NCBI RefSeq assembly: GCF_016937515.1 | Contig: NZ_JAFHKM010000002.1 | Coordinates: 4,583,001 to 4,647,000 of the forward strand | Source of the DNA: Cohnella algarum | GTDB lineage: Bacteria > Bacillota > Bacilli > Paenibacillales > Paenibacillaceae | Reading direction: 5' to 3' | Length of the DNA stretch: 64,000 bases | Program-made: the position numbers and the translations under genes | Shown here: piece after piece, positions 2,760 through 62,899 of the stretch | How the letters are laid out: each line of letters opens with the position of its first letter | Numbering within the stretch: the first letter of the stretch is position 1 | The notes under the pieces: model-generated | Told to the model about the DNA's origin: nothing | Seen by the model: the letters and a program-made list of their open reading frames with translations, nothing else | The model's database searches: none

Positions 2760-2767
2760 GGCTAATC

Positions 2768-3627: not shown

Positions 3628-3631
3628 CGAC

Positions 3632-4515: not shown

Positions 4516-4516
4516 A

Positions 4517-4543: not shown

Positions 4544-4563
4544 TTTGCCGACAATTCCCTCCG

Positions 4564-4697
4564 TCGGATGTTCATCCGATTCCAATTGGAAGAAATCCAA
4601 CGCGACGGCGAGACGCCGCGAAGAGGCGGTTCGGATGGGGAAATCCCGGGTATCCGCAGAGGAGAATCCGGGTTTCGCCGTCCAGGCGTTTTTTTAA
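4564..4697 (+). ncRNA. Candidate structured RNA ending in a terminator, between rbgA and rnhB
   Basis: This non-coding stretch is dense in nested inverted repeats. TCGGATG/CATCCGA occupies 4564-4579 and TTGGA/TCCAA 4586-4600. A long-range stem pairs AACGCGACGGCGA (4599-4611) with TCGCCGTC plus GCGTT (4675-4690, 3-base bulge). Inside it lie CCGC/GCGG (4616-4629) and CGGAT/ATCCG with GGG/CCC (4632-4656). Seven T residues follow the outer stem. GACGGCGA could instead pair with CGCCG at 4614-4618, so two exclusive folds are possible, as in an attenuator. I recognise no known riboswitch core. It could be a leader acting on rnhB or a free-standing small RNA. Confidence 0.45.
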
Positions 4698-4760
4698 TCT
4701 AAAAAAGCTTGCCGTCGGCGGCGCGATGACGGACAATACAAGAAAGAAAAGAGCAATCGC

Positions 4761-5429
4761 TTGGGGAAGGCGGGTAAGAAGTTGCCGCAGGATCATGCAC
4801 GGGAAGAGCCGGATCGGCTGGAATTCGAACGAAAGCTGTGGGAAAGCGGTCTGGTCGCCGTTGCCGGCGTGGACGAGGTCGGGAGAGGCTGCCTGTTCGG
4901 CGACGTCGTCGCGGCGGCGGTCGTTTTTCGGCCGGGAACGAAGCTGGAAGAAATCGACGATTCCAAAAAATTAAGCGAGAAAAAACGAGAGCTTCTGTAC
5001 GACCGGATCGTGGCCGAAGCGGCGGCGTGGTCGGTCGCCCGGGTCGACGCGGAGACGATTGACCGGATCAACATCCGGCAAGCGTCCCGCCTTGCGATGA
5101 AGATGGCGGTCGAGGGCTTAGGCCAGGCGCCGCAGCATTTGCTCGTCGATGCCGAGACGGTGAGTCTCGACATCCCGCAAACGGCGATCGTCAAAGGCGA
5201 CGCGAGAAGCCAATCGATCGGGGCCGCTTCGATATTGGCCAAAGTGACCCGGGACCGGCTCTGCAAGGAAGTGTGGGACGTATTGTATCCGGGCTACGGC
5301 ATAGCCGGGCACAAGGGCTATGCGACGAAGGAGCACCGGGACGCGCTGCTGGCGCTCGGGTCGACGCCGCTGCACCGGAAATCGTTTTTGGGCGGGATTT
5401 TGTCGGTTCAGCAGGAGCTGTTTACTTGA
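4761..5429 (+). CDS. rnhB: Ribonuclease HII
   Basis: 222 residues. RNase HII cleaves RNA in RNA-DNA hybrids, including single ribonucleotides in DNA. The metal-binding core GVDEVGRGCLFG near residue 36, DSKKLSEKKRE, SIGAASILAKVTRD and YPGYGIAGHKGYATKEH are all visible. The start is uncertain: TTG at 4761 gives the longest form, while TTG at 4779 has a better-spaced GGAAGGCGG site. No ATG is available in frame. The N-terminal extension seen in B. subtilis RnhB is mostly missing. Confidence 0.93.
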   Translation: MGKAGKKLPQDHAREEPDRLEFERKLWESGLVAVAGVDEVGRGCLFGDVVAAAVVFRPGTKLEEIDDSKKLSEKKRELLYDRIVAEAAAWSVARVDAETIDRINIRQASRLAMKMAVEGLGQAPQHLLVDAETVSLDIPQTAIVKGDARSQSIGAASILAKVTRDRLCKEVWDVLYPGYGIAGHKGYATKEHRDALLALGSTPLHRKSFLGGILSVQQELFT

Positions 5430-5490
5430 ATTTGCGACGGACTTTGCCGATACATAGGGTAAGGATTTTCGGGGGAAGGAGGGGACGCGC

Positions 5491-44248: not shown

Positions 44249-46363
44249 GTGGAAATGAATCAGTACTTGTCCATTTTTATCGACGAAGCGAACGACCATT
44301 TGCAGTCTCTTAACGAAAATATGCTTCGGCTCGAGCAGGAGCCGGAAGACATCAGCATCGTTCAAGTGATTTTCCGTTCCGCGCATACGCTCAAGGGAAT
44401 GTCCGCGACGATGGGGTTCGAGGACTTGGCGTCGCTGACTCATGAAATGGAAAACGTGCTCGACCTGGTTCGCAACAATCAATTGAAAATGAACGAAGTC
44501 ATTTTCGACGCGTTGTTCAAGTGCCTCGACTCGCTCGAAGGCATGGTTCAGGACGTCGTCGGCGGGGGAGACGGCAAAGCGGACGTCTCCGATTTGGTGG
44601 AACAGCTGAAGGCGATCGTAAGAGGAGACGTGGGCGGGTCCTCCGGCAAATCGTCCGCTTCTTCGCCGCCGAACGACGCGCCGCTGGTCGCGACGGAAAT
44701 GCTTCTCGACCAGTATCAGCTTTCGATATTGGAGCAGTCGGTCGACAACGGGCTGAGGGTGTTCCACATCGAGGTGATCGTCCGGGAAGATTGCGTGCTC
44801 AAGGCGGTTCGGGCCTACATGGTGTTCGAAGTGCTGGAGCGCAACGGCGAGGTGATCAAATCCCATCCTTCCGTCCAGGACATCGAACAGGACAAATTCG
44901 AACGCAGCTTCTCGGTGTACTATATTTCCCATATCGACAAGGACCAGCTGAAGAAAAGCATTTCGGGCGTATCCGAAATCGAAGAAGTCAAAATCATGGC
45001 GGTGGATCGCTCCTCGCTCGCCGAGCTCGATCAATCCAAGCAGCGGGAAAACGAAGCGACGGTTCAAGCGATTCAATCCGCCCGCGAAATCGCCGCGGCA
45101 GCGGCAGCGGCCCCGCAAGCCGCCGCCCAACCCGCGTCCCAGGCGGCTTCCGCCGAAACGGCCAAAAAAGCGCCGGCGGCTCCGGCCAAAGCTGCCGGCG
45201 CCGCAGCGGCCGGCGGCCGAACGATTCGCGTGGACATCGAGCGGCTGGACAAGCTGATGAATCTTTTCAGCGAACTGCTGATCGACCGCGTCCGGCTGGA
45301 ACAGCTCGCTTCGGAAGTGCGCCGCAACGATTTGACGGAAACGGTCGAACATATGGCGCGCGTCAGCAGCGACCTGCAAAATATCGTGCTGAAGCTGCGC
45401 ATGGTTCCGGTCGAAAGCGTCTTTAACCGGTTTCCCCGGATGGTGCGGGACCTGGCGAAATCGCTGGACAAAAAAGTCGATCTGGTCATTACGGGCGCGG
45501 AAACGGAACTGGATCGGACGGTGATCGACGAGATCGGCGACCCGCTCGTGCACCTGATCCGCAATTCGGTCGATCACGGGGTCGAATCGATCGCGGACCG
45601 GGCGGCCGCCGGCAAGCCTGAAACCGGCACCGTCCAGCTTCGCGCTTTTCACAGCGGCAACCACGTATTTATCGAAATCGAGGATGACGGCAAAGGCATC
45701 AACCGGGATAAGGTGCTGGACACCGCCGTCAAGCGCGGCGTCGTCACGCCGGAAGCGGGCAAGAAGCTGACGGACGAAGAGGTATACATGCTGCTGTTCG
45801 CGCCGGGCTTCAGCACCGCCGACAAAATTTCCGACATTTCCGGCCGGGGCGTCGGGTTGGACGTCGTCAAATCGAAAATCGAATCGCTCGGCGGCCAGGT
45901 TACCGTAACGTCGGCATTCGGCCACGGCTCCACCTTTTCCATCCAACTGCCGCTCACGCTGTCGATCATTTCGGCGATGCTCGTCAAGCTCGGCTCGGAA
46001 AAATACGCGTTTCCGCTGTCTTCGATCGTGGAGACGGCGGCGATCCGCCGCGAGCAAATCCGGGAGCTGCACGGCAATCGCGTCATCGAGTTCCGCAAAT
46101 CGATCATTCCGGTCGTATCGCTTGCCGAATTGCTGGAATGTCCCGATTACCGGGACGACGAAGAAGCGGAAACGGAAATGCTCGTCGTCCGGAAAGGGGA
46201 TAAGCTGGCCGCCGTCCTGGTGGAAGATTTCATTTCCCAAAGCGAAATCGTGCTGAAAACGCTCGGCAAATATTTGACCAACATTCCGTTCGTTTCCGGC
46301 GCGACGATTTTGGGCGACGGCCAGGTCGCGCTCATCGTCGATCCGAACTCGCTCATCAAATAA
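44249..46363 (+). CDS. cheA: Chemotaxis histidine kinase CheA
   Basis: 704 residues. The HPt domain holds the phospho-acceptor His46 in IFRSAHTLKGMSATMGFEDL. A CheY-binding P2 domain and an Ala/Pro-rich linker (AAAAAAPQAAAQPASQAASA) follow. The dimerisation and ATPase domains carry IRNSVDHGVESIADRAAAGK and ISGRGVGLDVVKSKIESLGG, and a CheW-like domain ends the protein. The start is GTG 44249, eight bases after CAGGAGGTG; ATG 44255 is in frame too. Confidence 0.97.
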   Translation: MEMNQYLSIFIDEANDHLQSLNENMLRLEQEPEDISIVQVIFRSAHTLKGMSATMGFEDLASLTHEMENVLDLVRNNQLKMNEVIFDALFKCLDSLEGMVQDVVGGGDGKADVSDLVEQLKAIVRGDVGGSSGKSSASSPPNDAPLVATEMLLDQYQLSILEQSVDNGLRVFHIEVIVREDCVLKAVRAYMVFEVLERNGEVIKSHPSVQDIEQDKFERSFSVYYISHIDKDQLKKSISGVSEIEEVKIMAVDRSSLAELDQSKQRENEATVQAIQSAREIAAAAAAAPQAAAQPASQAASAETAKKAPAAPAKAAGAAAAGGRTIRVDIERLDKLMNLFSELLIDRVRLEQLASEVRRNDLTETVEHMARVSSDLQNIVLKLRMVPVESVFNRFPRMVRDLAKSLDKKVDLVITGAETELDRTVIDEIGDPLVHLIRNSVDHGVESIADRAAAGKPETGTVQLRAFHSGNHVFIEIEDDGKGINRDKVLDTAVKRGVVTPEAGKKLTDEEVYMLLFAPGFSTADKISDISGRGVGLDVVKSKIESLGGQVTVTSAFGHGSTFSIQLPLTLSIISAMLVKLGSEKYAFPLSSIVETAAIRREQIRELHGNRVIEFRKSIIPVVSLAELLECPDYRDDEEAETEMLVVRKGDKLAAVLVEDFISQSEIVLKTLGKYLTNIPFVSGATILGDGQVALIVDPNSLIK

Positions 46364-46392
46364 TTTTCCGCATCCAAAAGGAGGAACGCCAC

Positions 46393-46854
46393 ATGGCAGA
46401 GGAATTGAAGGTCATCGTTTTCACGCTTGCGCATGAGGAATACGGCATCGAGGTAGACAAGGTTCGCACGATCGAGCGCATGGTTCCGATAACCCGCGTT
46501 CCGAAAACGCCTGCCTTCATCAAAGGCGTCATCAATTTGCGCGGTGTCGTCATCCCGGTCATCGATTTGCGGGGCCGGTTCGGGCTCCCCGAGTCGGAAA
46601 CGACGGAAAATTCCCGGATTATCATCGTCGCCGTGAACGATCTCGAAGTCGGCTTCATCGTCGACTCGGCCAACGACGTCATCGACATTATGAGCGATAC
46701 GATCGACGTGCCGCCGGAAGTCGTCGGCGGAATCAAGGCGAAATATTTGAGCGGCGTCGCCAAAATCGGCGAGGATCGCCTGCTGATTTTGCTTAACTTG
46801 TCGGAGGTGCTGAGCCGCTCCGAAATTATTCAGCTGGAACAAGCCGGGGAATAA
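46393..46854 (+). CDS. cheW: Chemotaxis coupling protein CheW
   Basis: 153 residues. CheW links receptors to CheA. EYGIEVDKVRTIERMVPITR and RVPKTPAFIKGVINLRGVVI are conserved, as is PVIDLRGRFGLPESET. The ATG at 46393 follows AAAGGAGGAACG. It ends two bases before cheC. Confidence 0.97.
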   Translation: MAEELKVIVFTLAHEEYGIEVDKVRTIERMVPITRVPKTPAFIKGVINLRGVVIPVIDLRGRFGLPESETTENSRIIIVAVNDLEVGFIVDSANDVIDIMSDTIDVPPEVVGGIKAKYLSGVAKIGEDRLLILLNLSEVLSRSEIIQLEQAGE

Positions 46855-46856
46855 CC

Positions 46857-47474
46857 GTGAACATGTTCAGTCAGGACGCCGATTTTAAAATGGACGTGCT
46901 GCGGGAAGTGGGCAACATCGGAGCCGGAAACGCCGCTACGGCTTTGTCCCGCTTGCTGGACAGGCCCGTCGACATGGCCGTCCCCAAAGTCAATTTGCTT
47001 CCCTTCGAGTCGATCGCCGAACAGGTCGGAGGTTCGGAAGAGGTGGTGGTGGCCATCTTCCTCCGGATGGAGGGAGACGTTCCCGGCAACATGTTTTTTC
47101 TGATGAGCCGCAAACAAGCGAAGCAGCTGCTCGTCGGCTTGCCGGGCTTCGATGCGACCGAAGAAGGCGGGTACAGCGAGCTTGAACTGTCGGCGCTATG
47201 CGAAATCGGCAATATTTTGGCCGGCTCTTATTTGTCTTCTCTCGCCGATTTGACGGGCCTTTACATGACGCCTACCGTGCCGTCCGTCGCGGTGGACATG
47301 GCCGGCGCGATTTTAAGCTACGGCTTGCTGCAATTCGGAATTATGGGGGACGACGCGCTGCTGATCGATACGACGTTCGTTCAGGACTCCCGGGAGGCGG
47401 AAGGTCATTTTTTCCTTATTCCCGATCCCGAATCGTTCGAGAAACTGTTCCGGGCATTAGGAGTGCCGATCTGA
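46857..47474 (+). CDS. cheC: CheY-P phosphatase CheC
   Basis: 205 residues with the two CheC active-site repeats: VLREVGNIGAGNAATALSRL and LSALCEIGNILAGSYLSSLA, each with the Glu and Asn used for dephosphorylation. CheC dephosphorylates CheY-P and binds CheD. The start is GTG 46857 or ATG 46863. It overlaps cheD by one base (TGATG). Confidence 0.95.
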   Translation: MNMFSQDADFKMDVLREVGNIGAGNAATALSRLLDRPVDMAVPKVNLLPFESIAEQVGGSEEVVVAIFLRMEGDVPGNMFFLMSRKQAKQLLVGLPGFDATEEGGYSELELSALCEIGNILAGSYLSSLADLTGLYMTPTVPSVAVDMAGAILSYGLLQFGIMGDDALLIDTTFVQDSREAEGHFFLIPDPESFEKLFRALGVPI

Positions 47475-47968
47475 TGGTCGAAGCGAATTTGATCAAAATC
47501 GGAATGGCGGATTTAAACGTCGCGACATCGGGAGGTTTGCTCCGGACGACGGGACTCGGCTCTTGCGTCGGCTTGACGCTGCACGATGCCGAGCTCCGGG
47601 TGGCCGGCATGGCCCATATCATGCTGCCCAGCTCGGATATTGCCCGAGAAGGAACGCTGAATATCGCCAAATACGCGGATACGGCCGTGCCGGAGTTGCT
47701 TGCGAGGCTGTTGAAGCTGGGGGCCGATCGCCGGAGGCTGGTGGCCAAGCTTGCCGGCGGCGCGCAAATGTTCGCGTTTGCGGGCGCGAGCGACAGCATG
47801 CGGATCGGGCCGCGCAACGTGGAGTCGGTCAAGCACGCGCTATCGTTGTTGTCGATTCCGGTCGTGGCGGAAGATACCGGCGGAAATTACGGCAGAACGA
47901 TCGAACTGGACAGCATTAGCGGCATTTTGAATATCCGAAGCGTGCAGTTCGGAATAAAGGAGATTTGA
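47474..47968 (+). CDS. cheD: Chemoreceptor glutamine deamidase CheD
   Basis: 164 residues. The catalytic Cys and His lie in TTGLGSCVGLTLHDAELRVA and GMAHIMLPSSD. CheD deamidates receptor glutamines and, bound to CheC, forms a feedback loop in Gram-positive chemotaxis. A longer open frame exists upstream in cheC; the ATG 47474 matches the family start. Confidence 0.95.
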   Translation: MVEANLIKIGMADLNVATSGGLLRTTGLGSCVGLTLHDAELRVAGMAHIMLPSSDIAREGTLNIAKYADTAVPELLARLLKLGADRRRLVAKLAGGAQMFAFAGASDSMRIGPRNVESVKHALSLLSIPVVAEDTGGNYGRTIELDSISGILNIRSVQFGIKEI

Positions 47969-47970
47969 GA

Positions 47971-48399
47971 ATGAGAGGCACATGGCGGTGGGTCGTCGTT
48001 TTTGCCGCTTTCGGCGCGGTTCTGACCTTTCTTTTCTCTTTGTCCAACAATCCGCTCGCGACGACGGCGCTTCGCAGCCTGTACGCCTTTTTGGCGTTCG
48101 GTCTGGTCGGCGCGGCCGTTCACGTGGCGGTCGGCCAACTGCTTCGGCCGGCGAACGCCGCGCCGCCGGAACGCGGGGACGCGGACGGCAGAGGTTCGGT
48201 GGTGGACCTTTCCACGCCGGACGACGACGGTTTGCTAAACGATATGTTGAAGGAGCAGAGGGAAGGGAGGGCGCCGGGAACGGCGGAGGCGGCGCCCGCG
48301 GGAGAGTTTCAGCCTCTCGCGCCAAAAAAATTGGTTTCGGTGGAATCTCCCGAGCCAGAGGCAGTTGTCCAGGCAATACGTCAAATGTCGGACGAATAA
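47971..48399 (+). CDS. Small membrane protein between cheD and sigD, unknown function
   Basis: 142 residues. Two hydrophobic helices occur near the N-terminus (about 7-25 and 37-55: WVVVFAAFGAVLTFLFSLSN, LYAFLAFGLVGAAVHVAVGQ); the rest is a charged soluble tail rich in Glu, Pro and Ala. The ATG at 47971 lies just after AAAGGAGATTTG and overlaps nothing. It has no counterpart between cheD and sigD in B. subtilis that I recognise. The operon position suggests a flagellar or chemotaxis link, but none is shown. Confidence 0.75.
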   Translation: MRGTWRWVVVFAAFGAVLTFLFSLSNNPLATTALRSLYAFLAFGLVGAAVHVAVGQLLRPANAAPPERGDADGRGSVVDLSTPDDDGLLNDMLKEQREGRAPGTAEAAPAGEFQPLAPKKLVSVESPEPEAVVQAIRQMSDE

Positions 48400-48414
48400 G
48401 GACGGTGAGCACGA

Positions 48415-49197
48415 ATGATCGATCATCATGCCCGGTTATCCCATCGCGAAGTCTGGAAGCGCTGGAAGGAAAACGGGGATCCCGATGCGAGAAAACAGCT
48501 GATCGAGCATTATTTGCCGTTGGTTGATTACGTGTCCAGCCGCATGGCCGTCGGACTGCCCAAAAACGTGACGAAAGACGATTTGGCTTCGAGCGGGGCC
48601 ATGGGACTTATCGATGCCATCGAAAAGTTCGATTACGAGCGGGGCCTTCAATTCGAAACGTACGCATCGTGGCGAATCCGAGGCTCCATTATTGACGGGC
48701 TGAGGCAAGGGGACTGGGTTCCACGCTCGGTGCGCGACAAAGCGAAAAAAATGGAAGACGCATATGCCGCGCTGGAGCAGCGCAACCTGCGAACCGCCAC
48801 CGACGAGGAAATATGCGCCTACTTGAACATAACGAACAAAGAATTTCAGCACATGCTGCAGGAGGTAGCCGTCGCGACGGTATGTTCGCTCGAGGATCCG
48901 ATTCGCGAGGAAGAATCGGAAACCCGAATGTCGCTGCTAATCGACGAGAAGGCGCTGAATCCCGAGTCGAAAGTTCATGAAACCTATTTAAAAGAAGCGC
49001 TGACGGCCGGCATCGAGAGGCTGACGCCGAAAGAACGGACGGTCGTCTCCTTGTTTTACTATGAGGATCTGTCGCTTAGCGAAATCGCGGAAGTGATGTC
49101 CTTGTCGCCTTCCCGCATTTCGCAGCTGCATTCGAAAGCGATTTTGAGGCTGAGGGCCGCCCTCGCCAAGCAAAAGGATCAGCTGCTGCAAAAATAA
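48415..49197 (+). CDS. sigD: Flagellar RNA polymerase sigma factor SigD (sigma-28)
   Basis: 260 residues. It directs transcription of late motility, flagellin and autolysin genes. Region 2 shows HYLPLVDYVSSRMAVGLPKN and KFDYERGLQFETYASWRIRG with GSIIDGLRQGDWVPRSVR; region 4 shows ERLTPKERTVVSLFYYEDLS and LSEIAEVMSLSPSRISQLHS. Its place at the end of the fla/che operon lets operon read-through set the fraction of motile cells, as in B. subtilis. Confidence 0.97.
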   Translation: MIDHHARLSHREVWKRWKENGDPDARKQLIEHYLPLVDYVSSRMAVGLPKNVTKDDLASSGAMGLIDAIEKFDYERGLQFETYASWRIRGSIIDGLRQGDWVPRSVRDKAKKMEDAYAALEQRNLRTATDEEICAYLNITNKEFQHMLQEVAVATVCSLEDPIREEESETRMSLLIDEKALNPESKVHETYLKEALTAGIERLTPKERTVVSLFYYEDLSLSEIAEVMSLSPSRISQLHSKAILRLRAALAKQKDQLLQK

Positions 49198-52281: not shown

Positions 52282-53889
52282 ATGTACGACATATTGATCG
52301 TGGACGACGAAGCGTCCGTCCGGGAGATGATCGTCGAGCTGGTGGACTGGAACGGCCGCGGCTTCAACTGCGTCGGCCATAGCGAAAACGGAATGGATGC
52401 TTTGGAAGCGGCGATCCGTCTTCGCCCCGACGTCGTGCTGACCGATATTTGCATGCCGTTCATGGACGGGCTCGAGCTTGCCCGCAGGCTCTCCGACGAG
52501 CTTCCCCGCTGCAGGGTCGTGTTCCTGACCGGGCATGACGATTTCGAATACGCCAGGCAGGCGGTAAGGCTCGGGGCCGAGGATTATTTGATGAAGCCGA
52601 TGACGGCGGCCGAACTTTGCGCGCTGCTTGACCGGCTGCGGCAGCAGCTGGACGAGGAACGTTACCGGCTCGAGGATATGGACCGTCTGCGCCGGCAATT
52701 GAACGAAAGCTTTCCGGTTTTGCGGGAGCGCTTTCTTGAACGGCTAGTCATTGCGGGCGTGCGCAAAGGGGAAGCGGAGGAACGGCTTGCCTATTTCGGG
52801 ATCGACCTGGGCGGACCGGATTACGTCGTGCTCGCGGTCGATCCGGACCGGTTCGACGACCGGCTCGGCGCCGAAGATCGGGAGCTGCTCCGGTTCGCCG
52901 TCTATAATATCGTGCAGGAGCTGACGGGAGCAGAGGCTGCGCCAGCCGTATTTCAAAGCCGCGAGGAGCGGGTGCTCGCGGTTTTGTCGGGCGACGCGTC
53001 GCGCGATCTGGAAGCGCGCGCGCAGCATCTCGCGGAGCAAATTCGCGACGCGGCCGAGCGGTATTTGCCGATTACGGTGACGTCCGGCATCGGGCGGCCG
53101 GCTTGCGGCCTGCGGGATTTGCCGCGCTCCTATGCGGAAGCCGCGACGGCGCTCGAATATCGTCTGCTGCTCGGCGGCAACCGGGTGATCGGCATTTCCG
53201 ACATGGAAGGGAGGGAGAGCGCCCTTTATTTCGAGTCGGCGCAAGAAGAGAAGAAGCTGGTCACGGCGATCCGGACGGGAAACGCGAGCGAAGCGGAAGC
53301 GGCGATCTCGGAAACGTTCGCCCGGCTGCGCGGCGCGTTTCCGACCGTCGAGCGCTGCCGGATCCAAATTCAGAAATGGATCATGGCAATCGTCCAAACC
53401 GTGGCGGAGCTCGGGGGAGACGAGTCGGAGGCGTTCGGCCATCAAGCCCATCCGTTCGACATCCTGTCCTCCTGCAAGACGCTGGACGAAATCGAACGCC
53501 GCCTGACCGAGGCGGCGCGGCGGGCGATCGCCGCCGTATCCGCGGCCCGGACCGATTTTTGCCGGCTGCAGATGCTGAACGCGGAAGCTTTTATCCGGGA
53601 GCGATACGGCGACCCGGAGCTTTCGCTCAAGACGATATGCCGGCATCTGCACATGAGCACGAGTTATTTCAGCGCCGAATTCAAACGCCATACCGGCAAG
53701 ACGTTCGTGGAGTACGTGACCGCCGAACGGATCGCCAAGGCGAAGGAGCTGCTCAAGCTTACCGATGCGAAGACATACGAAATCGCGGCGAAAGTCGGCT
53801 ATAAAGACCCGCATTACTTCAGCCTCATTTTCAAAAAAGCGACCGGAGAGACGCCGAAGGAGCATCGGCAGAAGGCGGCCATGCCATGA
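52282..53889 (+). CDS. YesN-type response regulator with AraC-family DNA-binding domain
   Basis: 535 residues. The receiver domain opens YDILIVDDEASVREMIVELV with phospho-acceptor Asp55 (DVVLTDICMPFMDGLELARR) and Lys in YLMKPM. A long middle region follows, and the C-terminal double helix-turn-helix of AraC type reads LSLKTICRHLHMSTSYFSAE and YEIAAKVGYKDPHYFSLIFK. The open frame extends upstream, but ATG 52282, after GGGAAGGGGCG, is the proper start. It is coupled to the sensor kinase by an ATGA overlap. It likely activates sugar operon II. Confidence 0.92.
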   Translation: MYDILIVDDEASVREMIVELVDWNGRGFNCVGHSENGMDALEAAIRLRPDVVLTDICMPFMDGLELARRLSDELPRCRVVFLTGHDDFEYARQAVRLGAEDYLMKPMTAAELCALLDRLRQQLDEERYRLEDMDRLRRQLNESFPVLRERFLERLVIAGVRKGEAEERLAYFGIDLGGPDYVVLAVDPDRFDDRLGAEDRELLRFAVYNIVQELTGAEAAPAVFQSREERVLAVLSGDASRDLEARAQHLAEQIRDAAERYLPITVTSGIGRPACGLRDLPRSYAEAATALEYRLLLGGNRVIGISDMEGRESALYFESAQEEKKLVTAIRTGNASEAEAAISETFARLRGAFPTVERCRIQIQKWIMAIVQTVAELGGDESEAFGHQAHPFDILSSCKTLDEIERRLTEAARRAIAAVSAARTDFCRLQMLNAEAFIRERYGDPELSLKTICRHLHMSTSYFSAEFKRHTGKTFVEYVTAERIAKAKELLKLTDAKTYEIAAKVGYKDPHYFSLIFKKATGETPKEHRQKAAMP

Positions 53890-55718
53890 TGGCGCCCATG
53901 AGGAGGCTTTCTTTCGGCAGCATTCAGACGAACATGGCGGCCGCGTTCGCGAGCCTGATTTTGCTGACGGTGCTGCTGCTCGGTTTTATCGCTTACCAGC
54001 TGTCGACGGCGGCCGTCCGGAGGTCCGCGGAAGATTACACGGCCGAGCTTGTCCGGCAGGTGAACGCGAACATCCGAACCTATGTCGACAACATGCGAAC
54101 GATATCGTCCCTCGCGCTGAACAACCGCGACGTCCGCTCGTTCGTCGCGGGCTTGGACGCGCTGCCGGAGGACGAGCGCCGGGCGACGGAGGAGCGAATC
54201 TCGGACTTTTTTCGCTCGATCCTCCTTTCCCGAAACGACATCGCCTCGATCCAGATCGCGGGCTATGACGGCTCGTTCGTCTCCGACCGGCGGGAAGCGA
54301 AGCTTAACCCATACGTCAGCATACCGGAGCAATCGTGGTACAAGCTGGCCCGTGCCGCGGAAGGCGGCATCGTCGTTTCTTCGTCGCACATTCAGCCTAT
54401 TTACAGGAACGAGTATCGCTGGGTCGTGTCGCTCAGCCGCGAATTGCGCCGGGACGATGGAACCGGGGTGGGCATCCTGCTCGTCGATCTCAACTTCAAC
54501 GTGATGAACGACATGCTGTCGCAAATCGATTTGGGACAACGCGGCTACGTATTTATCGTCAGCGATGACGGCAATCTCGTCTACCACCCGCAGCAGCAGC
54601 TCGTGTACAGCGGCTTGAAGACGGAGCGCATCGACGACGTTCTTCGCCGGGGCGGCGGCAGCTTCGAGACGGACGAAGGAAGCCAAAGCCGGATTTATAC
54701 GATCCAGGACAGCGGCTTCGGCTGGAAAATCGTCGGCGTCTCGTACGTGAGCGAGCTTGTCGGCAACAAGCGCCAGATGGACCTCTCGCTTCTGGCGTGG
54801 GGCGGGTTTTGCCTGCTCGTCGCGATCGCGCTGTCCGTGCTGCTCTCCCGCGGGCTTTCCCGTCCGATCAAGCGGCTGCAGGAACGAATGCGCGAGGTCG
54901 AGCGCGGCAATCTGGACATATACGTGCCGCCGGACGGACAGCGGGAAATCGGGCTGCTTGCGCGCACGTTCAATATGATGGTGGCCCAAATCAAGGAGCT
55001 GATGAGTCAGGTGGTGCGGGAGCAGGAGTTCAAGCGCCGAAGCGAGCTGAACGCGCTGCAGGCGCAGATCAATCCGCATTTTCTGTACAACACGCTCGAT
55101 TCGATCGTCTGGATGGCCGAAGCGAAAAAATCGGAGGAAGTCGTGCTTATGGCGTCCGCGTTGGCCCGCTTGTTCCGCAGCTCGATCAGCAAAGACCGGG
55201 AGCTTGTTCCCGTGCGAACGGAAATCGAACATATCGCGAACTATTTGACGATTCAGAAGATGCGCTACAAAAATAAAATCGATTACCGCATCGACGTCGA
55301 TTCGGCCATTCTCGACTGTTTGACGATCAAGGTGCTGCTGCAGCCGCTCGTCGAAAACGCGATTTACCACGGGCTGAAAAACAAATACGGTCCCGGATGC
55401 ATCGCGATCTCCGGCGAACGCGTTGCAGACCGCATCGTCTTTCGGATCGCGGACGACGGCGTCGGCATGGACGAGGACATGCTGGCGAAGCTGATGCGCC
55501 CGGACGCCCGGAAAGCCGACGGCCGAGGGATCGGCGTCGCGAACGTGCGCGAGCGGATCCGGCTTCACTTCGGTCCCGAGTTCGGACTGGTTTACGAGAG
55601 CGAGCCCGAGGAAGGGACGACGGTAACGGTGACGATTCCCGCCGTGGAGCCGCGCGAGGAAGAACGGTGCGACAAGGCCTCCGGCGAGCCGGAGGGGGGA
55701 AGGGAGGCCGCGCCATGA
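53886..55718 (+). CDS. Sensor histidine kinase, Cache-HAMP-HisKA_7-like (YesM family)
   Basis: 610 residues. There is a transmembrane helix at about 20-40 (FASLILLTVLLLGFIAYQLS), an extracellular Cache-like domain (about 45-290), and a second helix at about 300-320 (LLAWGGFCLLVAIALSVLLS). A HAMP domain and a kinase core follow, with phospho-acceptor His398 in QAQINPHFLYNTLDSIVWMA. The ATPase domain shows LLQPLVENAIYHGLK and RIADDGVGMDEDM. The kinase overlaps both neighbours (ATGA at each end), so RR, HK and binding protein are co-translated. The stimulus is inferred to be a sugar, possibly presented by the anchored binding protein. Confidence 0.92.
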   Translation: MMAPMRRLSFGSIQTNMAAAFASLILLTVLLLGFIAYQLSTAAVRRSAEDYTAELVRQVNANIRTYVDNMRTISSLALNNRDVRSFVAGLDALPEDERRATEERISDFFRSILLSRNDIASIQIAGYDGSFVSDRREAKLNPYVSIPEQSWYKLARAAEGGIVVSSSHIQPIYRNEYRWVVSLSRELRRDDGTGVGILLVDLNFNVMNDMLSQIDLGQRGYVFIVSDDGNLVYHPQQQLVYSGLKTERIDDVLRRGGGSFETDEGSQSRIYTIQDSGFGWKIVGVSYVSELVGNKRQMDLSLLAWGGFCLLVAIALSVLLSRGLSRPIKRLQERMREVERGNLDIYVPPDGQREIGLLARTFNMMVAQIKELMSQVVREQEFKRRSELNALQAQINPHFLYNTLDSIVWMAEAKKSEEVVLMASALARLFRSSISKDRELVPVRTEIEHIANYLTIQKMRYKNKIDYRIDVDSAILDCLTIKVLLQPLVENAIYHGLKNKYGPGCIAISGERVADRIVFRIADDGVGMDEDMLAKLMRPDARKADGRGIGVANVRERIRLHFGPEFGLVYESEPEEGTTVTVTIPAVEPREEERCDKASGEPEGGREAAP

Positions 55719-56719
55719 CGACCGGAGTCCGGGGATGGGGGCGGCTGCTGACGCTGCTGCTCGCGCTTGCGGCGGCCGGCGGGGCGGTTTATTGCGCGAC
55801 CGGCCGGCTCGCGGATATGGGAGGCGGGAGCGACAGGCCCCGCATCGTCGTCATTATCAAGGAATCGAAATCGATGGAGTTTTGGCAGGTGTTCGAAAGC
55901 GGGGCGGAAGCCGCGGCCAAGGAATTCGAAGCGGATATCGCGGTGATCGGGCCCGGCAAGGAAACCGACGTCGACGCGCAAATCGCGATGGCGGAGAAGG
56001 CGGCGGCCGAAAGGCCAGACGCGATCGTTCTCGCGGCGGCGGACTACAACCGTCTCGCGCCGGCCGCCGAAACGATCGGCAAGCTCGGCATCCCGCTGAT
56101 CATGGCCGATTCGGCGGTGAACAGCGATCGCCCGAAAAGCTTTATCGCGACGGACAACGTGGCGGCGGGCGAAAAGGTCGGCCGATTGATGGCGGAGCAG
56201 CTGTCGGCCACCGGAGGAAAAGTCGCCGTCATGAGCTTCGTTCAAGGATCGGCGTCGCAAATCGACCGGGAGCGGGGCGTGCGCAACGCGCTGGAGAAGG
56301 CGCCGGGCGTCGAGGTAGTCGGCACGTTTTACAGCGACGGCATCGAACGGAAAGCCTACGAGACGACGCTCGAGCTGCTGAAGGAGCACCCCGATCTGAA
56401 GGGCATCGTCGGTCTGAACGAGGCGTCGTCCGTCGGCCCGGGAAAGGCGCTTCGCGACGCCGGCGCGGCCGGGCGGGTCAAGCTGGTCGGCTTCGACAGC
56501 TCGGTCGAGGAGGTCAAGCTGCTCGAAGAGGGCGTCATGCAGGGGACGATCGTGCAGCGGCCGTTCAATATGGGCTACCTGGGCGTCAAAACGGCGGTTC
56601 AAGCGATCCGGGGCGAGAAGGTGCCGAAGACGATCGACACGGGTTCCGTGATCATTACGAAGGCGAACATGTACGAGGACGAAAATCAAAAGCTGCTCTT
56701 CCCGTTCGTGGGAGAGTAG
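55715..56719 (+). CDS. Membrane-anchored periplasmic-binding-protein-like sugar sensor
   Basis: 334 residues. It is a ribose/xylose-type (PBP1, Peripla_BP_4) fold: RIVVIIKESKSMEFWQVFES, RPDAIVLAAADYNRLAPAAE and VGRLMAEQLSATGGKVAVMS. The N-terminus is a hydrophobic anchor (LLTLLLALAAAGGAVYCATG) whose cysteine lacks a good lipobox, unlike the transporter's lipoprotein at 59540. It is a paralogue of that receptor (shared QIDxEMA-like, TDN-AAG motifs). Being encoded with the kinase rather than with the transporter suggests a sensing role, like XylFII in the XylFII-LytS-YesN systems; this is inference. Confidence 0.88.
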   Translation: MTTGVRGWGRLLTLLLALAAAGGAVYCATGRLADMGGGSDRPRIVVIIKESKSMEFWQVFESGAEAAAKEFEADIAVIGPGKETDVDAQIAMAEKAAAERPDAIVLAAADYNRLAPAAETIGKLGIPLIMADSAVNSDRPKSFIATDNVAAGEKVGRLMAEQLSATGGKVAVMSFVQGSASQIDRERGVRNALEKAPGVEVVGTFYSDGIERKAYETTLELLKEHPDLKGIVGLNEASSVGPGKALRDAGAAGRVKLVGFDSSVEEVKLLEEGVMQGTIVQRPFNMGYLGVKTAVQAIRGEKVPKTIDTGSVIITKANMYEDENQKLLFPFVGE

Positions 56720-56726
56720 CTTTTTT
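56691..56726 (+). terminator. Rho-independent terminator of sugar operon I
   Basis: AGCTGCTCTTCCC (56691-56703) pairs with GGGAGAGTAGCT (56710-56721) with one bulge, and six T residues follow. The stem overlaps the last codons and stop codon of the sensor gene. Confidence 0.85.
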
Positions 56727-56752
56727 CGCATTAGGCAAGCTGGGGGAGCGAT

Positions 56753-56775
56753 CGTAAAATATTCGACTTTTTACG
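56753..56775. promoter_or_regulatory. Inverted repeat upstream of the ABC transporter operon
   Basis: CGTAAAA (56753-56759) and TTTTACG (56769-56775) form a perfect 7+7 inverted repeat spaced by nine bases, centred about 59 bases before the predicted start of operon II. This is the distance of a class I activator site, so it is a candidate binding site for the response regulator. Confidence 0.45.
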
Positions 56776-56787
56776 GAAGTTTTTCTA

Positions 56788-56816
56788 TTCTTCTCGGAAT
56801 TGAATCCGCTTACAAT
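56788..56816 (+). promoter_or_regulatory. Promoter and cre-like site of sugar operon II
   Basis: A weak -35 TTCTTC (56788-56793) and -10 TACAAT (56811-56816) are 17 bases apart. TGAATCCGCTTACA (56801-56814) matches the CcpA consensus except for one base and overlaps the -10 box. The weak -35 agrees with a promoter that needs an activator. Confidence 0.55.
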
Positions 56817-56877
56817 CAAGGCGTTAAGTTGAAATACCATGCCGGTTTCGACGGCGGGAAGGGGAGTGGCTTTGGAG

Positions 56878-58377
56878 ATGAGCGAAATACGGGTCCGGAT
56901 GGAGGACATCAGCAAATCGTTCCCCGGCGTCAAGGCGCTCGACCGGTGCCGGTTCGAGCTCCGGGCCGGCGAAGTGCACGCGCTCGTGGGCGAGAACGGC
57001 GCCGGCAAGTCGACGATGATGAAGGTTCTCACCGGGGTTTATACGAAAGATTCCGGATCGATCCGGTACATGGGGCGGGAGTTCGAGCCTGTCGGGACGA
57101 AAGCGGCGCAGGACGCGGGCATTATCATGATTCACCAGGAGCTCAACCTGGCGCAGGATTTGACCGTCGCGCAAAACATTTTCATCGGCCGGGAACCGCG
57201 GATCGCCGGATTGTTCCTCGACGAGAAGCGGCAGGAGCGGATGGCCCGGGAACTGCTGGACCGGCTGCGTCTGAACGTGGATCCGCGGGCGCCGGTGTCG
57301 AAGCTCACGGTCGCCAAGCAGCAGATGGTGGAAATCGCCAAGGCGCTCTCCTTCGACGCCAAGGTGCTGATCATGGACGAACCGACAGCCGCGCTGAGCG
57401 ATTCGGAGATCGAGGACTTGTTCGCGATCGTCAACCGGCTTCGGCGGGAAGGCGTAGGGATCGTCTACATTTCCCACCGGATGGACGAACTGAAGACGAT
57501 CGCGGACCGCATCACGGTGATGAGGGACGGCGCCTACATCGATACCGTTCACGCGGCGGACGTGACGAGCGACCGGATCATTTCGATGATGGTCGGCCGG
57601 GAGTTCTATTACAGCAAACGCTCCGACATCGCCTCCGGCGGCGGGGAGGTCGTCCTCGAGGCGAAGGGGCTCAGTCGGGGGAAGACGCTGAAAAACGTCG
57701 ATTTCCGGCTGAAAAAAGGCGAAATTCTCGGTTTTGCCGGCCTGGTCGGGGCGGGGAGGACCGAAGTGGCGAGAGCGGTGTTCGGAGCGGACCCCGTGGA
57801 TTCGGGGGACATTTACGTCCGCGGCAAAAAGGTCAAGCTCAGAAGCCCGTACGACGCGGTGCGCCACGGCATCGGCTATTTGTCCGAAGACCGCAAGCGG
57901 TTCGGCTGCATCGTCGACATGGACGTCAAGACGAACGCGACGATCGCCGCTCTCCGCTCGTTTTGCGGGCCGCTCGGCGTCATGAAGGACAAAGCGATCG
58001 CCGGATCGTCCGAAAGAACCGTCGAGAAGCTTCGGGTGAAAACGCCCGGAATCGGGCAGAAAATGAAGCTTCTGTCCGGCGGCAACCAGCAAAAAGTCGT
58101 CATCGGCAAATGGCTGACCCGCGACTGCGACATCCTCATTTTCGACGAGCCGACGCGAGGCATCGACGTCGGGGCCAAAAGCGAAATTTACAAGCTGCTC
58201 GACGAGCTTGCGGCGCAGGGTAAATCGATCATTATGATTTCTTCGGAGCTGCCGGAAATATTGCGGCTGAGTCACCGGATCGTCGTCATGTGCGAAGGGC
58301 GCATTACGGGCGAGCTCTCGCACGACGAAGCGTCCCAGGAAGCCATCATGCGTCTTGCCACGAAGCATATGGCGTAG
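56878..58377 (+). CDS. Sugar ABC transporter ATP-binding protein (RbsA/XylG/MglA type)
   Basis: 499 residues. Two tandem ABC domains are present. The first has [20 protein letters not shown] (Walker A), [20 protein letters not shown] (signature region) and [19 protein letters not shown] (Walker B). The second has [20 protein letters not shown], a degenerate Walker [21 protein letters not shown] (signature) and [20 protein letters not shown] (Walker B). It powers import of a monosaccharide. ATG 56878 lies about ten bases after GGGAAGGGGAG; ATG 56839 would add 13 residues but lacks a site. Confidence 0.95.
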
Positions 58378-58421: not shown

Positions 58422-59411
58422 ATGAATCCGTCCGTCGCAACGACCAAGGCGTCATCCCGCTTCCGCATTCCGCCGGGAGCGCTGCAGCAATTGCTGGCCT
58501 TTGCCAGCCTGATCGTTCTCGTTGTCGTGTTTTCGCTTTCCTCGGGCAATTTCCTGCAGTTTTCCAACATCGTCGGCATTTTGATGTCGACGGCGGTCAT
58601 CGGCGTTTTGGCGCTCGGGTCCACGTTCGTCATCATTACCGGCGGCATCGACCTTTCGGTCGGCACCGTCATGACGCTAAGCGCCGTCATGACCGGGGTG
58701 TTCATCACATTTTGGGGAATGCCGGTGGCAGTCGGCGTCGTCGGGGGCGTTTTGACCGGCGCGCTGTGCGGCTTTCTGTCCGGCGTCTTCGTCTCGAAGC
58801 TGAAAATTCCCCCGTTCATCGCGACGCTGGCGATGATGATGGTCGCCAAGGGACTTGCGCTTGTCATTTCCGGCGCCAAGCCGATTTATTTTACGGATCC
58901 GCACGCGACGAATTTCTCGCGAATTTCGCTCGGCAGCTTGCTCGGCATTCCATTCGCCGTGCTCGTCTTTTTCGGGGCGGCGATCGTCGGCGGTCTCGTG
59001 TTGTCCAAGACGATCGTCGGGAGGTACAATTTCGCGCTCGGCAGCAACGAGGAAGCGACCCGGCTTTCCGGCGTCAACGTCAACTTCTGGAAAATCGTCA
59101 TTTATACGATCACCGGGACGTTTACGGGTCTCGCCGGCGTTCTCATCGCCTCGCGCCTGAACTCGGCGAATCCGGCTCTTGGCCAGGGCTACGAGCTGGA
59201 GGCGATCGCGGCCGTCGTCATCGGCGGCACCTCGCTCAGCGGGGGCAAGGGGACGATCGTCGGCACGGTGATCGGCGCCCTCATCATGAGCGTGCTCACC
59301 AACGGTCTCCGCATTTTGTCGGTGCCCCAGGAATGGCAGACGGTCGTCGTTGGCCTGGTCATTTTACTGGCGGTATATACGGACATTTTGCGCCGCCGGA
59401 AATCGGCGTAA
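58422..59411 (+). CDS. Sugar ABC transporter permease (RbsC/XylH type)
   Basis: 329 residues with about eight to ten hydrophobic helices. The RbsC-family signature VIITGGIDLSVGTVMTLSAV and the coupling segment NEEATRLSGVNVNFWKIVIY with AAVVIGGTSLSGGKGTIVGT are clear. The ATG at 58422 follows AAAGGGGGAAACG. It lies 44 bases downstream of the ATPase gene. Confidence 0.95.
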   Translation: MNPSVATTKASSRFRIPPGALQQLLAFASLIVLVVVFSLSSGNFLQFSNIVGILMSTAVIGVLALGSTFVIITGGIDLSVGTVMTLSAVMTGVFITFWGMPVAVGVVGGVLTGALCGFLSGVFVSKLKIPPFIATLAMMMVAKGLALVISGAKPIYFTDPHATNFSRISLGSLLGIPFAVLVFFGAAIVGGLVLSKTIVGRYNFALGSNEEATRLSGVNVNFWKIVIYTITGTFTGLAGVLIASRLNSANPALGQGYELEAIAAVVIGGTSLSGGKGTIVGTVIGALIMSVLTNGLRILSVPQEWQTVVVGLVILLAVYTDILRRRKSA

Positions 59412-59539: not shown

Positions 59540-60544
59540 ATGAGAAAAACATTCGGGAAATTCGTTGCCGGCGCGTCGGCTCTGGCGCTGTTGGGGTCGC
59601 TGCTCGCCGCCTGCGGGACGAACGCTTCGCAGAACGCCTCCGGGGGCGCCGGGGAAGCCGGAGGAGACGGCGGCAAAATGTATATTCCGATCGTATCCAA
59701 AGGCTTCCAGCACCAGTTTTGGCAGGCGGTCAAGCAGGGGGCCGAGAAGGCGGCCGCGGAGCTGAACGTCGAAATCACGTTCGAAGGGCCGGAGTCCGAA
59801 TCCCAGGTCGACAAGCAAATCGAAATGCTGCAGGTCGCGCTTGACAAAAAGCCGGACGCCATCGGCTTCGCGGCGCTTGACAGCAAAGCCTCGGCTCCGC
59901 TGCTGGAGCAGGCGAAGGCGAATGACATTCCGGTCGTCGCCTTCGATTCCGGCGTGGAAAGCGACATCCCGGTCGCGACCGCGGCGACCGACAATATCGC
60001 CGCCGCGGGACTTGCCGCGGACAAGATGGCCGAGCTGATCGGCGGCGAGGGCGAAATCGCGATGATCGTGCACGATCAGACGAGCCGTACCGGCGTCGAC
60101 CGCCGCGACGGCTTCAAAAACCGGATCGAGGAGAAATACCCGAACATCAAAATCGTCGACATTCAGTACGGCGGCGGCGATCATCTGAAGTCGACGGACC
60201 TGGCGAAGGCGATCATGCAGGCGCATCCGAATCTGAAAGGCTTCTTCGGGGCGAACGAAGGCTCGGCCATCGGCGTCCTGAACGCCGTCAAGGAAATGAA
60301 CATGCAAGGCAAAATCACGATTATCGGATACGATTCGGGCAAACAGCAGATCGACGCGATCAAAAACGGCGAAATGGCCGGCGCTATTACGCAAAATCCG
60401 ATCGGCATCGGCTATGAAACAGTCAAGGCGGCCGTCGCGGCGGCAAAGGGCGAAACCGTCGAACCGAACATCGACACCGGATTTTTCTACTACGACAAAT
60501 CGAACATCGACGACGAAGAGATCAAGGCCGTTTTGTACGAATAG
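59540..60544 (+). CDS. Sugar ABC transporter substrate-binding lipoprotein (RbsB type)
   Basis: 334 residues. The lipobox LLAACG (signal peptide MRKTFGKFVAGASALALLGS before it) puts a lipid anchor on Cys near residue 25. The mature part is Peripla_BP_4: PIVSKGFQHQFWQAVKQGAE, ATDNIAAAGLAADKMAELIG, AMIVHDQTSRTGVDRRDGF and IGYDSGKQQIDAIKNGEMAG. It captures the sugar for the permease. ATG 59540 follows AAAGGGGAGAAAACG. Confidence 0.95.
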   Translation: MRKTFGKFVAGASALALLGSLLAACGTNASQNASGGAGEAGGDGGKMYIPIVSKGFQHQFWQAVKQGAEKAAAELNVEITFEGPESESQVDKQIEMLQVALDKKPDAIGFAALDSKASAPLLEQAKANDIPVVAFDSGVESDIPVATAATDNIAAAGLAADKMAELIGGEGEIAMIVHDQTSRTGVDRRDGFKNRIEEKYPNIKIVDIQYGGGDHLKSTDLAKAIMQAHPNLKGFFGANEGSAIGVLNAVKEMNMQGKITIIGYDSGKQQIDAIKNGEMAGAITQNPIGIGYETVKAAVAAAKGETVEPNIDTGFFYYDKSNIDDEEIKAVLYE

Positions 60545-60608: not shown

Positions 60609-61259
60609 ATGAACGTGGAATTTTACATCGATACGGCGGATCTCGCGCAAATTCGGGAGGCGATGTCGTGGGGCGTGCTCGACGGGGTGACGACCAACCC
60701 GTCGATCGTCGCCCGGGAAAAGCGCGGCTTCGAGGAGCTGATTCGGGATATCGGGCGCGCGACGACCGGCAAGGTGTGGTGCGAAGCCGTCGGCGCGAAT
60801 GCCGACGCCATGGTCGAGGAAGCGCGCGCCTTCCGGCAATGGGCCGACCGCGTCGTCGTCAAGCTGCCGATGGGCGCGGAGGGTGTCAAGGCGGCGAGCC
60901 GGCTGGCGAAAGAAGGCATCGAGACGAACATGACGCTCGTCTACTCGGTCGGCCAGGCGGTGCTGGCGGCCAAAGCAGGAGTTCAATACGTCAGTCCCTA
61001 CCTCGGGCGTGTCGACGACGTCGCCTGGTCGGGAGCCGAGCTGATCGGCGGCATCGCGAGAACGTTCTCGCGCCTTAGCCTTCCGACGAAGGTGATCGCG
61101 GCCAGCGTCCGCGGGCCGCAGCAGGTGCTGGATATGCTGAATATCGGCGTCCACGCGGTGACGACGTCCTACCCCGTTTGGGCGGCCATGATGAAGCATC
61201 CGATGACCGATATCGGGCTGGAGGGCTTTATGCGGGACTGGAAGGAAGCCGGATTATAG
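60609..61259 (+). CDS. FSA/TalC-type transaldolase family protein
   Basis: 216 residues, the short form of transaldolase (F6P aldolase type). The catalytic Schiff-base lysine is Lys85 in VVVKLPMGAEGVKAASRLAK, the same number as in E. coli FsaA. FYIDTADLAQIREAMSWGVL, GVTTNPSIVAREKRGF and SPYLGRVDDVAWSGAELIGG are conserved. It may split a ketose 6-phosphate to dihydroxyacetone (FSA-like) or act as a transaldolase; the substrate cannot be told from sequence. ATG 60609 follows AGAGAGGCGGCGAAGG. Confidence 0.9.
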   Translation: MNVEFYIDTADLAQIREAMSWGVLDGVTTNPSIVAREKRGFEELIRDIGRATTGKVWCEAVGANADAMVEEARAFRQWADRVVVKLPMGAEGVKAASRLAKEGIETNMTLVYSVGQAVLAAKAGVQYVSPYLGRVDDVAWSGAELIGGIARTFSRLSLPTKVIAASVRGPQQVLDMLNIGVHAVTTSYPVWAAMMKHPMTDIGLEGFMRDWKEAGL

Positions 61260-61332: not shown

Positions 61333-61384
61333 TTTCGCTTGCAATTAGGAGGTAGACGATTCGAATCTGGGGGTGAATTCGGCA

Positions 61385-62899
61385 ATGCCGCGCTATATTA
61401 TGGCTCATGATTTGGGAACGTCCGGTCACAAATGCTCGGTGTTCGACGAGACCGGGCATGCGGTCGCGTGGGCTTCCTTGGCCTATCCGACTTATTACGG
61501 GGAGGGCGGCGAAGCCGAGCAGCATCCCGACGACTGGTGGGATGCCGTCGTCCGCTCGACGCGCCTCGTGCTGGATCGCGTCCGGCCATCCGACATCGCC
61601 GCGGTCGGCTTCAGCGCTCACATGATGGCCGTCTGTCCGGCGGACCGCTGCGGCCGCCCGCTCGGCCGGGCCCTCATTCACGCGGATACGCGCAGCGCTC
61701 CTCTTGCGGGCGAAGCGTTCCGGCTGCTTGACGCCGACCGTTTGTACGAGCGGACGGGCAACCGGCTCGACAGCCGCTATCCGCTGCTCAAGCTGATGTG
61801 GCTCAAGCGCCGCCGTCCCGACGCATATCGCGAGGCGGCGTACTTTTTGCAGCCGAAAGATTATCTTGCGGGGCGCATGTCCGGGACGTTCGGCGTCACC
61901 GATTATTCGGACGCCTCGCTGACCGGGCTTTTCGACATTCACGGCTGCCGCTGGGACGACGGGATCGCGGAGGCGTTCGGCATCGACCGGGCGAAACTGC
62001 CGGACATCGTGCCGTCGGCGACGCTCGTCGGCGGCGTAACGGCGGAAGCGGCGGCGGAAACCGGGCTCGCGCCGGGCACGCCGGTCGCGCTCGGAGGCGG
62101 CGACGGCTCGTGCGCCGCGCTCGGCGCCGGCGCGATCGCGCCGGGGGAAGCGTACGTCTATATCGGGACGACCGCCTGGGTGTCTCGCGCGGCCGCGGCG
62201 CCGGCAGCGGACGAAAAAAAACGGATTTTCACGATGTGCGGACCGGAGGCCGGGCTATACTACGGAATCGGGACGATGCAGGCGGCCGGGGCCGCCCATC
62301 AATGGGCGGCGCGGGAGCTCGGCTCGCGCGGGGCGCCGCAGGAGGACCCGTATGTACGGTTGGAGGAAGAAATCGGGCGGCTGCCATGGGGCTCGAACGG
62401 CCTCGTGTTCCATCCGTATTTGCAAGGCGAGCGGTCTCCGGTCTGGAACGAGGAGGCGCGAGGCCTGTTTTTCGGCCTGGAATCGGGTCACACCCGGTTC
62501 CATATGGCGCGGGCGGTGATGGAGGGGGTCGGATACGGGCTGCGCTCGATCGCCGAGGCGCTTCGGGGAACCGAACCCGCGGCCTGCTACGCGGCGATCG
62601 GCGGCGGCATGAAAAGCCCGGCGTGGCGGGAAATCGTCGCATCCGCCCTTGACGCGCCGATCCGGGTGCCGGCCCAAACGGAGGCGGCGACGTCGCTCGG
62701 CGCCGCGATGGCGGCCGGGGTGGCCGTCGGCATGTTCGCGGATTATGCGGACGCCCGGCGCCGGTTCGCGCGGGAGACGGCCGAAATCGCGCCGAAGGCC
62801 GACCGCGGGCGGGTGCTGGAAGGATACCGGCTTTACGTCGAGCTTTACGAAAGGCTGCGCGATTTGTACCCGCGTCTGCGGACGCTTCGCGGCTATTGA
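61385..62899 (+). CDS. FGGY family carbohydrate kinase (xylulokinase-like)
   Basis: 504 residues. The FGGY fold opens YIMAHDLGTSGHKCSVFDET with the phosphate loop; the central GTPVALGGGDGSCAALGAGA and the C-terminal EGVGYGLRSIAEALRGTEPA, AAIGGGMKSPAWREIVASAL and TSLGAAMAAGVAVGMFADYA carry the ATP contacts. It phosphorylates a sugar or polyol, most likely a ketose, upstream of the transaldolase. GTG 61373 is in frame, but ATG 61385 follows GGGGGTG better. The promoter of rpsB begins within its stop codon. Confidence 0.88.
   Translation: MPRYIMAHDLGTSGHKCSVFDETGHAVAWASLAYPTYYGEGGEAEQHPDDWWDAVVRSTRLVLDRVRPSDIAAVGFSAHMMAVCPADRCGRPLGRALIHADTRSAPLAGEAFRLLDADRLYERTGNRLDSRYPLLKLMWLKRRRPDAYREAAYFLQPKDYLAGRMSGTFGVTDYSDASLTGLFDIHGCRWDDGIAEAFGIDRAKLPDIVPSATLVGGVTAEAAAETGLAPGTPVALGGGDGSCAALGAGAIAPGEAYVYIGTTAWVSRAAAAPAADEKKRIFTMCGPEAGLYYGIGTMQAAGAAHQWAARELGSRGAPQEDPYVRLEEEIGRLPWGSNGLVFHPYLQGERSPVWNEEARGLFFGLESGHTRFHMARAVMEGVGYGLRSIAEALRGTEPAACYAAIGGGMKSPAWREIVASALDAPIRVPAQTEAATSLGAAMAAGVAVGMFADYADARRRFARETAEIAPKADRGRVLEGYRLYVELYERLRDLYPRLRTLRGY

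Follow-up and report, generated by a model that had tools for sequence, protein, structure and literature searches.

Does a cell that imports a sugar through an ABC transporter also sense it through a solute-binding protein (SBP), and if so, to which partner does that protein pass the signal? The question is raised by a 64,000-nucleotide stretch of the 6.2 Mb Cohnella algarum genome (contig NZ_JAFHKM010000002.1, positions 4,583,001 to 4,647,000; hereafter the window), in which a YesN-type response regulator, a sensor kinase with a Cache-type extracellular domain and an SBP are encoded side by side, upstream of a CUT2-type sugar transporter operon (operon II) that has an SBP of its own. A first, sequence-only reading had taken the three genes for a three-part sensor that triggers operon II. 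We find that the trio is a real unit, and consider it likely that it works as a three-component sugar sensor in which the sugar-loaded SBP docks on the dCache domain of the kinase, the kinase phosphorylates YesN and YesN activates operon II. What is observed, and underlies this mechanism, is the gene architecture, the conserved linkage, the predicted dCache fold, ligand-type residues shared by the two SBPs, signatures in kinase and SBP, and a conserved repeat where an operator would be expected. The trio consists of:

52282..53889, + strand: YesN-type response regulator, 535 aa (Pfam Response_reg, GGDEF_2 and HTH_18/HTH_AraC)
53886..55718, + strand: sensor kinase, 610 aa (Pfam dCache_1, HAMP, His_kinase and HATPase_c)
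55715..56719, + strand: sensor SBP, 334 aa, with a ribose-binding-protein-like fold (Pfam Peripla_BP_4/PF13407)

Conservation of the trio

Reading of the open reading frames (ORFs) places an ATGA overlap at the YesN/kinase joint and another at the kinase/SBP joint, which fits translational coupling of the trio but does not prove it. The SBP gene stops 7 nt short of 56726, the end coordinate given earlier; a feeble terminator-like hairpin (56699-56714; 6 pairs, G-C in 3) lies at its end, and a gap of about 150 nt separates it from the CUT2 ATPase gene.

We selected loci both by their SBP and by their kinase. For the former, a family search of 295 genomes (113 matched at E<=1e-60) provided the best 80 relatives of the SBP, the window's own left out, and stretches of about 10-12.6 kb around them were scanned for the window's proteins. 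The order YesN-kinase-SBP was present in 80/80. The kinase and SBP genes overlapped in 52 of these loci and lay <=20 nt apart in 75, counts that rest on start codons chosen by script with a preference for nearness. In a set of named loci from Paenibacillus, Cohnella and clostridial and spirochaete metagenome-assembled genomes (MAGs), which shares many places with the SBP-selected set, 75 of 80 had the same order, and three of the five failures are contig ends (L174, L178, L183). Most of the named relatives with this SBP belong to Paenibacillus and Cohnella, the best being P. cisolokensis (82%).

Selection by kinase used 80 of the listed matches not yet covered, from an order search of 392 genomes of which 263 matched at E<=1e-110. 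An SBP gene adjoined the pair in all 80 (77 times downstream, and in the other 3 loci before YesN), and an SBP lay downstream in 29/29 further kinase matches whose places were partly counted already. The Cohnella genome itself has 58 PF06580 kinase matches; loci were taken for 29 of 55 further kinase matches, and none of these 29 non-triad kinases had such an SBP within 1.5 kb, SBPs of other families not having been sought there. The three-part unit proposed by the sequence-only reading is thus backed by linkage, and also by the signatures described below.

In three loci (L092, L120, L176) YesN and SBP were found together with a kinase gene broken into several frames, by decay or sequencing error; L092, with its kinase divided between two frames, is counted among the 80/80. 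The triad also occurs in spirochaetes, which are distant from Bacilli (L169-L194, spirochaete and clostridial MAGs), and in a 250-genome sample of the class, close kinases (E 1e-110) were confined to the Cohnella family and one other, in 28 genomes. Horizontal spread of the triad is possible.

Sensor and transport SBPs

From these loci, we set 185 sensor SBPs against 78 transport SBPs, the latter scoring >350 bits. By rule, a lipobox is present in 76/78 transport SBPs and in only 11/185 sensors, namely L056 and L071, both of which resemble a cysteine within a helix, and L101, L104, L106, L109-L113 and L175. The window's sensor SBP, which has none, ends in a C-terminal NQKLLFPF tail; such a QxLLFP-type tail was found in 174/185 sensors and 0/78 transport SBPs, with a pattern slightly looser for the sensors. 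At position 329, 99% of the sensors have F and 100% of the transport SBPs have Y. In all, 22 sensor-specific positions were flagged, one of them (39) a gap column, and 9 fall within residues 311-331. A tree of 268 SBPs, with a transport SBP as root, places the sensors in one clade of 185 leaves with no others inside (support 0.949).

The two kinds of SBP nevertheless keep the same residues at F56, W57, D132, R185, N235, D261 and Q281, which we take to match by position the ligand residues of ribose-binding protein. Sensor and transport SBPs should therefore bind a similar kind of sugar. An AlphaFold2 (AF2) model of the sensor SBP from 67 sequences (pLDDT 92.8) has a single N-terminal helix at 8-35 and a short helix at 322-328 in the tail. 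Its closest solved folds are Agrobacterium SBPs, 3brs of Clostridium phytofermentans (39% identity), GanP and AraP, with XylFII at rank 50. By score XylFII is likewise the more distant relative (5xsj, 92 bits, against 214 bits for 3brs).

The SBP had been described as membrane-anchored. The single helix and the missing lipobox agree with this, and we infer that the helix stays uncleaved as an anchor; an AXA-type cleavage pattern, however, is positive in 106/185 sensors including the window's, and is too loose to separate an anchor from a signal peptidase I cleavage site.

No sugar could be named from family profiles, since the NCBIfam matches of the sensor SBP (D-allose, rhamnose, ribose and others) all fall far under their cut-offs. 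Apart from rhamnulokinase near L175 and L180, searches of ORFs next to the relatives, chosen by eye (10 with NCBIfam, 10 with Pfam), showed no clear sugar-catabolic enzyme. In these two clostridial loci rhamnulokinase-like genes lie upstream of the triad, a hint at deoxyhexose sensing in some members.

The kinase

The kinase consists of a transmembrane helix, a dCache ectodomain (about residues 36-303), a second transmembrane helix, HAMP, His_kinase and HATPase_c. The ectodomain, as modelled by AF2 (pLDDT 87), has dCache domains as its closest solved folds (Foldseek, VIA); LuxQ, HptS and LytS chains are absent among the matches listed, which excludes nothing. The second Cache module holds the sequence YHPQQQ, and this HPxQ signature is found in 184/185 triad kinase ORFs, 179 of them detected within one fixed ectodomain slice, the lone exception being a split ORF. 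HPxQ was seen in none of 19 parsed paralogues from the same genome, from which the triad kinase is far removed (1345 bits, the next scoring 256). Two residues before WY in the distal Cache module, the window kinase and the consensus both have Gln, the position at which amino-acid-binding dCache domains have arginine.

Three members of this kinase family (about 610 bits, with YHPEQQ) lie in loci L334, L335 and L336, where the order is SBP-YesN-kinase. At L336 the SBP upstream of YesN resembles a lipoprotein, and by eye GH32-like and fructokinase-like ORFs lie alongside.

A putative operator before operon II

Downstream of the sensor SBP gene lie the following predicted control elements and genes:

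56762..56790, + strand: predicted YesN operator, direct repeat TTCGAC-N15-TTCTAT with 21-bp spacing (conserved pattern)
56811..56816, + strand: TACAAT, predicted to be the -10 element for the transporter genes, 3' of the operator (by eye)
56872..58377, + strand: RbsA-like ATPase of a CUT2-type sugar ABC transporter, the gene that opens operon II (start codon TTG at 56872 or ATG at 56878)
58422..59411, + strand: permease, RbsC-like (family profile matches)
59540..60544, + strand: transport SBP, a lipoprotein with an LAAC lipobox and without the QxLLFP tail (sequence and family profiles)
60609..61259, + strand: aldolase of the transaldolase/fructose-6-phosphate aldolase family, TalC-like (PF00923; TIGR00875 at 242.7 bits, cut-off 245.95)
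61373..62899, + strand: FGGY-family sugar kinase, xylulokinase-like (PF00370/PF02782; TIGR01312 at 341 bits, cut-off 380)

Operon II thus runs from CUT2 ATPase, permease and lipoprotein SBP to TalC-like aldolase and FGGY kinase. The LAAC lipobox and the adjoining CUT2 genes bear out the earlier suggestion that a separate lipoprotein serves the transporter.

Among 74 loci with the transporter downstream, giving 53 unique intergenic regions before rbsA, we find a direct repeat TTCnAC-N15-TTCnAT, its halves 21 bp apart, upstream of -10 elements like TACAAT or TAAAGT (these elements assigned by eye). It is exact in 19/53 intergenics (0.0 in shuffles), present with <=1 mismatch in 23/53 (0.2) and with <=2 mismatches in 45/53 (5.0), the shuffles being limited to at most the last 330 bases of an intergenic. 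Upstream of yesN the repeat is rarer, at 3/74 with <=1 mismatch and 18 with <=2. A slightly longer form of the pattern has one exact copy in the whole Cohnella genome, at 56762-56790; with one mismatch it occurs at 11 places, and a reversed-pattern control gave 2 in all. AraC-type activators bind direct repeats next to the -10 element. No good -35 element was seen by eye for the transporter promoter, and a consensus promoter scan listed another promoter-like site (56732-56760) and not the -10 at 56811-56816. Together with the linkage and the signatures, the predicted operator supports operon II as the likely target of the sensor, as had been proposed.

Proposed mechanism and alternatives

In the mechanism that we favour, the anchored SBP, whose synthesis is probably coupled to that of the kinase by the overlapping stop and start codons, would bind extracellular sugar of the kind imported by the adjoining CUT2 transporter. 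Once loaded it would dock on the dimeric kinase at its dCache ectodomain and alter the state of the kinase through HAMP. The kinase would then pass phosphate to YesN, which would occupy the 21-bp direct repeat and recruit RNA polymerase to the transporter/TalC/FGGY-kinase operon; both activation and the direction of the signal are suppositions at this step.

Several observations weigh against this scheme. One locus, L182, has kinase and SBP on a 5.4-kb contig in which YesN was not found, a real exception, and at L160 neither kinase nor YesN was found within 9 kb upstream of the SBP relative. The repeat pattern was drawn after inspection of the sequences, and intergenics from kin are not independent; moreover, where the transporter lies before yesN, the repeat occurs with <=2 mismatches in 7/26 loci, near chance. 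Since this is not clearly above chance, another site or spacing may serve the transporter-first loci. The dCache domain could itself bind a ligand. Finally, mean-field direct-coupling analysis (DCA) of 172 unique triads (13 of the 185 were removed because of gaps; Neff 95) gave a signal between kinase ectodomain and SBP (top z 9.2; 201 of the top 556 pairs inter-protein) that is no higher than for pairs unable to touch, namely ectodomain and YesN receiver (top z 9.5; 159/391) and YesN receiver and SBP (top z 8.2; 144/415). The positive control, DHp with YesN receiver (top z 7.0; 121/238), likewise showed no excess. As a known contact went undetected, the DCA was without power here and we do not use it as evidence.

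Could the kinase do without the SBP? It might sense a small ligand by its dCache domain alone, the SBP being an accessory that raises sensitivity or a second import SBP for a transporter. We hold this to be unlikely, given the adjacent SBP in 80/80 kinase-selected loci, the sensor tail found in 0/78 transport partners, the lipobox counts (11/185 sensors, 76/78 transport SBPs) and the Gln that stands in place of the arginine of amino-acid-binding dCache domains. It is nonetheless the case that dCache domains bind small ligands, amines included, in their membrane-distal module (PMC6321045), and that in CuaDSR the two-component pair still perceives cellobiose alone, although the full system does so better (PMC10384115). 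The SBP might also act in the opposite sense, the free form keeping the kinase inactive, or acting as a phosphatase, until sugar releases it. One published SBP-kinase system in which ligand dissociates the complex offers a precedent, but a ligand-bound SBP usually activates its sensor (both from PMC10384115), and we think an inhibitory SBP improbable. That the three genes are unrelated neighbours overlapping by chance is scarcely credible, because it is contradicted by the linkage counts, the gene order being kept across Paenibacillus, Cohnella, Clostridia and Spirochaetes. Docking of the loaded SBP on the kinase is our preferred account.

Comparison with known sensors

The arrangement recalls XylFII-LytS-YesN, which comprises a sensing SBP, a LytS/YesM-type kinase, YesN and a separate transport SBP. 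In Clostridium beijerinckii, where it responds to D-xylose, a PF13407 SBP, a PF06580 kinase and YesN are likewise encoded together (arrangement also as cited in PMC10384115). The earlier statement that the window system differs from it holds: the periplasmic domain of LytS is a four-helix bundle (PMC9769921), whereas the window kinase has a dCache domain by Pfam and by AF2/Foldseek and shows no such bundle. An apparent XylFII/GanP-type set exists elsewhere in the same genome (L342; G000:C2:4034500-4044500, 1475-7066), in the order SBP-kinase-YesN and with a major facilitator superfamily sugar transporter. Its SBP (PF13407, with a hydrophobic N-terminal stretch) has GanP and XylFII as best PDB matches, and its kinase has a short ectodomain and no Cache match.

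In HptRSA and LuxPQ, ligands and SBP families differ from those of the window trio, and LuxQ is a hybrid kinase. Both resemble the trio in joining a double-PDC (dCache-like) kinase ectodomain to a separate SBP, and structures of the LuxQ-LuxP (Vibrio) and HptS-HptA (Staphylococcus aureus) complexes have been solved (PMC8534201). CuaDSR of Ruminiclostridium cellulolyticum is a cellobiose sensor. Its class-I kinase has an ectodomain modelled as a long helix bearing two alpha/beta modules of five strands each, its regulator is of the YesN type and another SBP serves transport; CuaD bound CuaS in two-hybrid assays, and the CuaS ectodomain bound 0/3 sugars tried (PMC10384115). Like CuaDSR, the window trio has a YesN regulator and a class-I kinase with HAMP and an ectodomain of two alpha/beta modules, but it differs in gene order (regulator-kinase-SBP) and in its SBP: CuaD is a predicted lipoprotein of Family 1 SBP fold, and the window's is a PF13407 protein that has a helix but lacks a lipobox.

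AraPST and GanP of Geobacillus stearothermophilus likewise combine an SBP of this fold, used for sensing, with a YesM/YesN pair and keep another SBP for transport (PMC13068155, PMC10384115; PDB titles 6gq0, 6sw4). The trio differs from them in sugar and, judged by name, in gene order. In Parageobacillus a non-lipoprotein PF13407 SBP adjoins YesM-YesN and an interaction has been suggested (PMC13068155).

The window trio thus has the general make-up of an SBP-dependent three-component system, that is, an SBP reserved for sensing, separate from the one used in transport and genetically tied to kinase and regulator. Such SBP-kinase sensors are already known, and a Cache-type kinase does not by itself make this one undescribed, as had been supposed, because in LuxPQ, HptSA (PMC8534201) and CuaDSR (PMC10384115), too, the partner of the SBP is a kinase of tandem PAS/Cache-like type. 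The trio is set apart as a variant by a PF13407 SBP without lipobox paired with a dCache YesM kinase, by its regulator-kinase-SBP order and by its own signatures. No title or abstract opening in the literature covered describes this triad of Paenibacillus, an absence that is weak since subscription papers lie mostly outside that coverage. PMC4428132 and PMC4194401 yielded nothing that bears on it.

Taken with its relatives, the trio looks like a widespread sensor subtype with signatures of its own. A broader proposal, which we put forward tentatively and would not rate as high as an even chance, is that it represents a distinct three-component class spread over Paenibacillales, Clostridia and Spirochaetes. 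CUT2-type SBPs would here have lost the lipobox and gained a membrane helix and a QKLLFPF docking tail, each being tied to a dCache YesM kinase via the HPxQ loop of the membrane-proximal module. The Cache domain would then read a protein and not a small ligand, and one chassis with a 21-bp direct-repeat operator could serve many sugars through changes in the SBP pocket. The signatures would provide a marker for SBP-paired kinases that, with the predicted operator, turns 'orphan Cache kinases' into testable pairs. They may also account for the use of a single Cache fold in direct as well as in protein-mediated sensing, and such systems are a possible source of modular sugar-responsive switches.

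Genes around the sensor

Upstream of the sensor, at 44249-49197 of the window, a chemotaxis/flagellar cluster was recognised by eye, with CheA-, CheW-, CheC- and CheD-like ORFs and a SigD-like sigma factor. Downstream, an rpsB-like ORF lies at about 62969 (also by eye).

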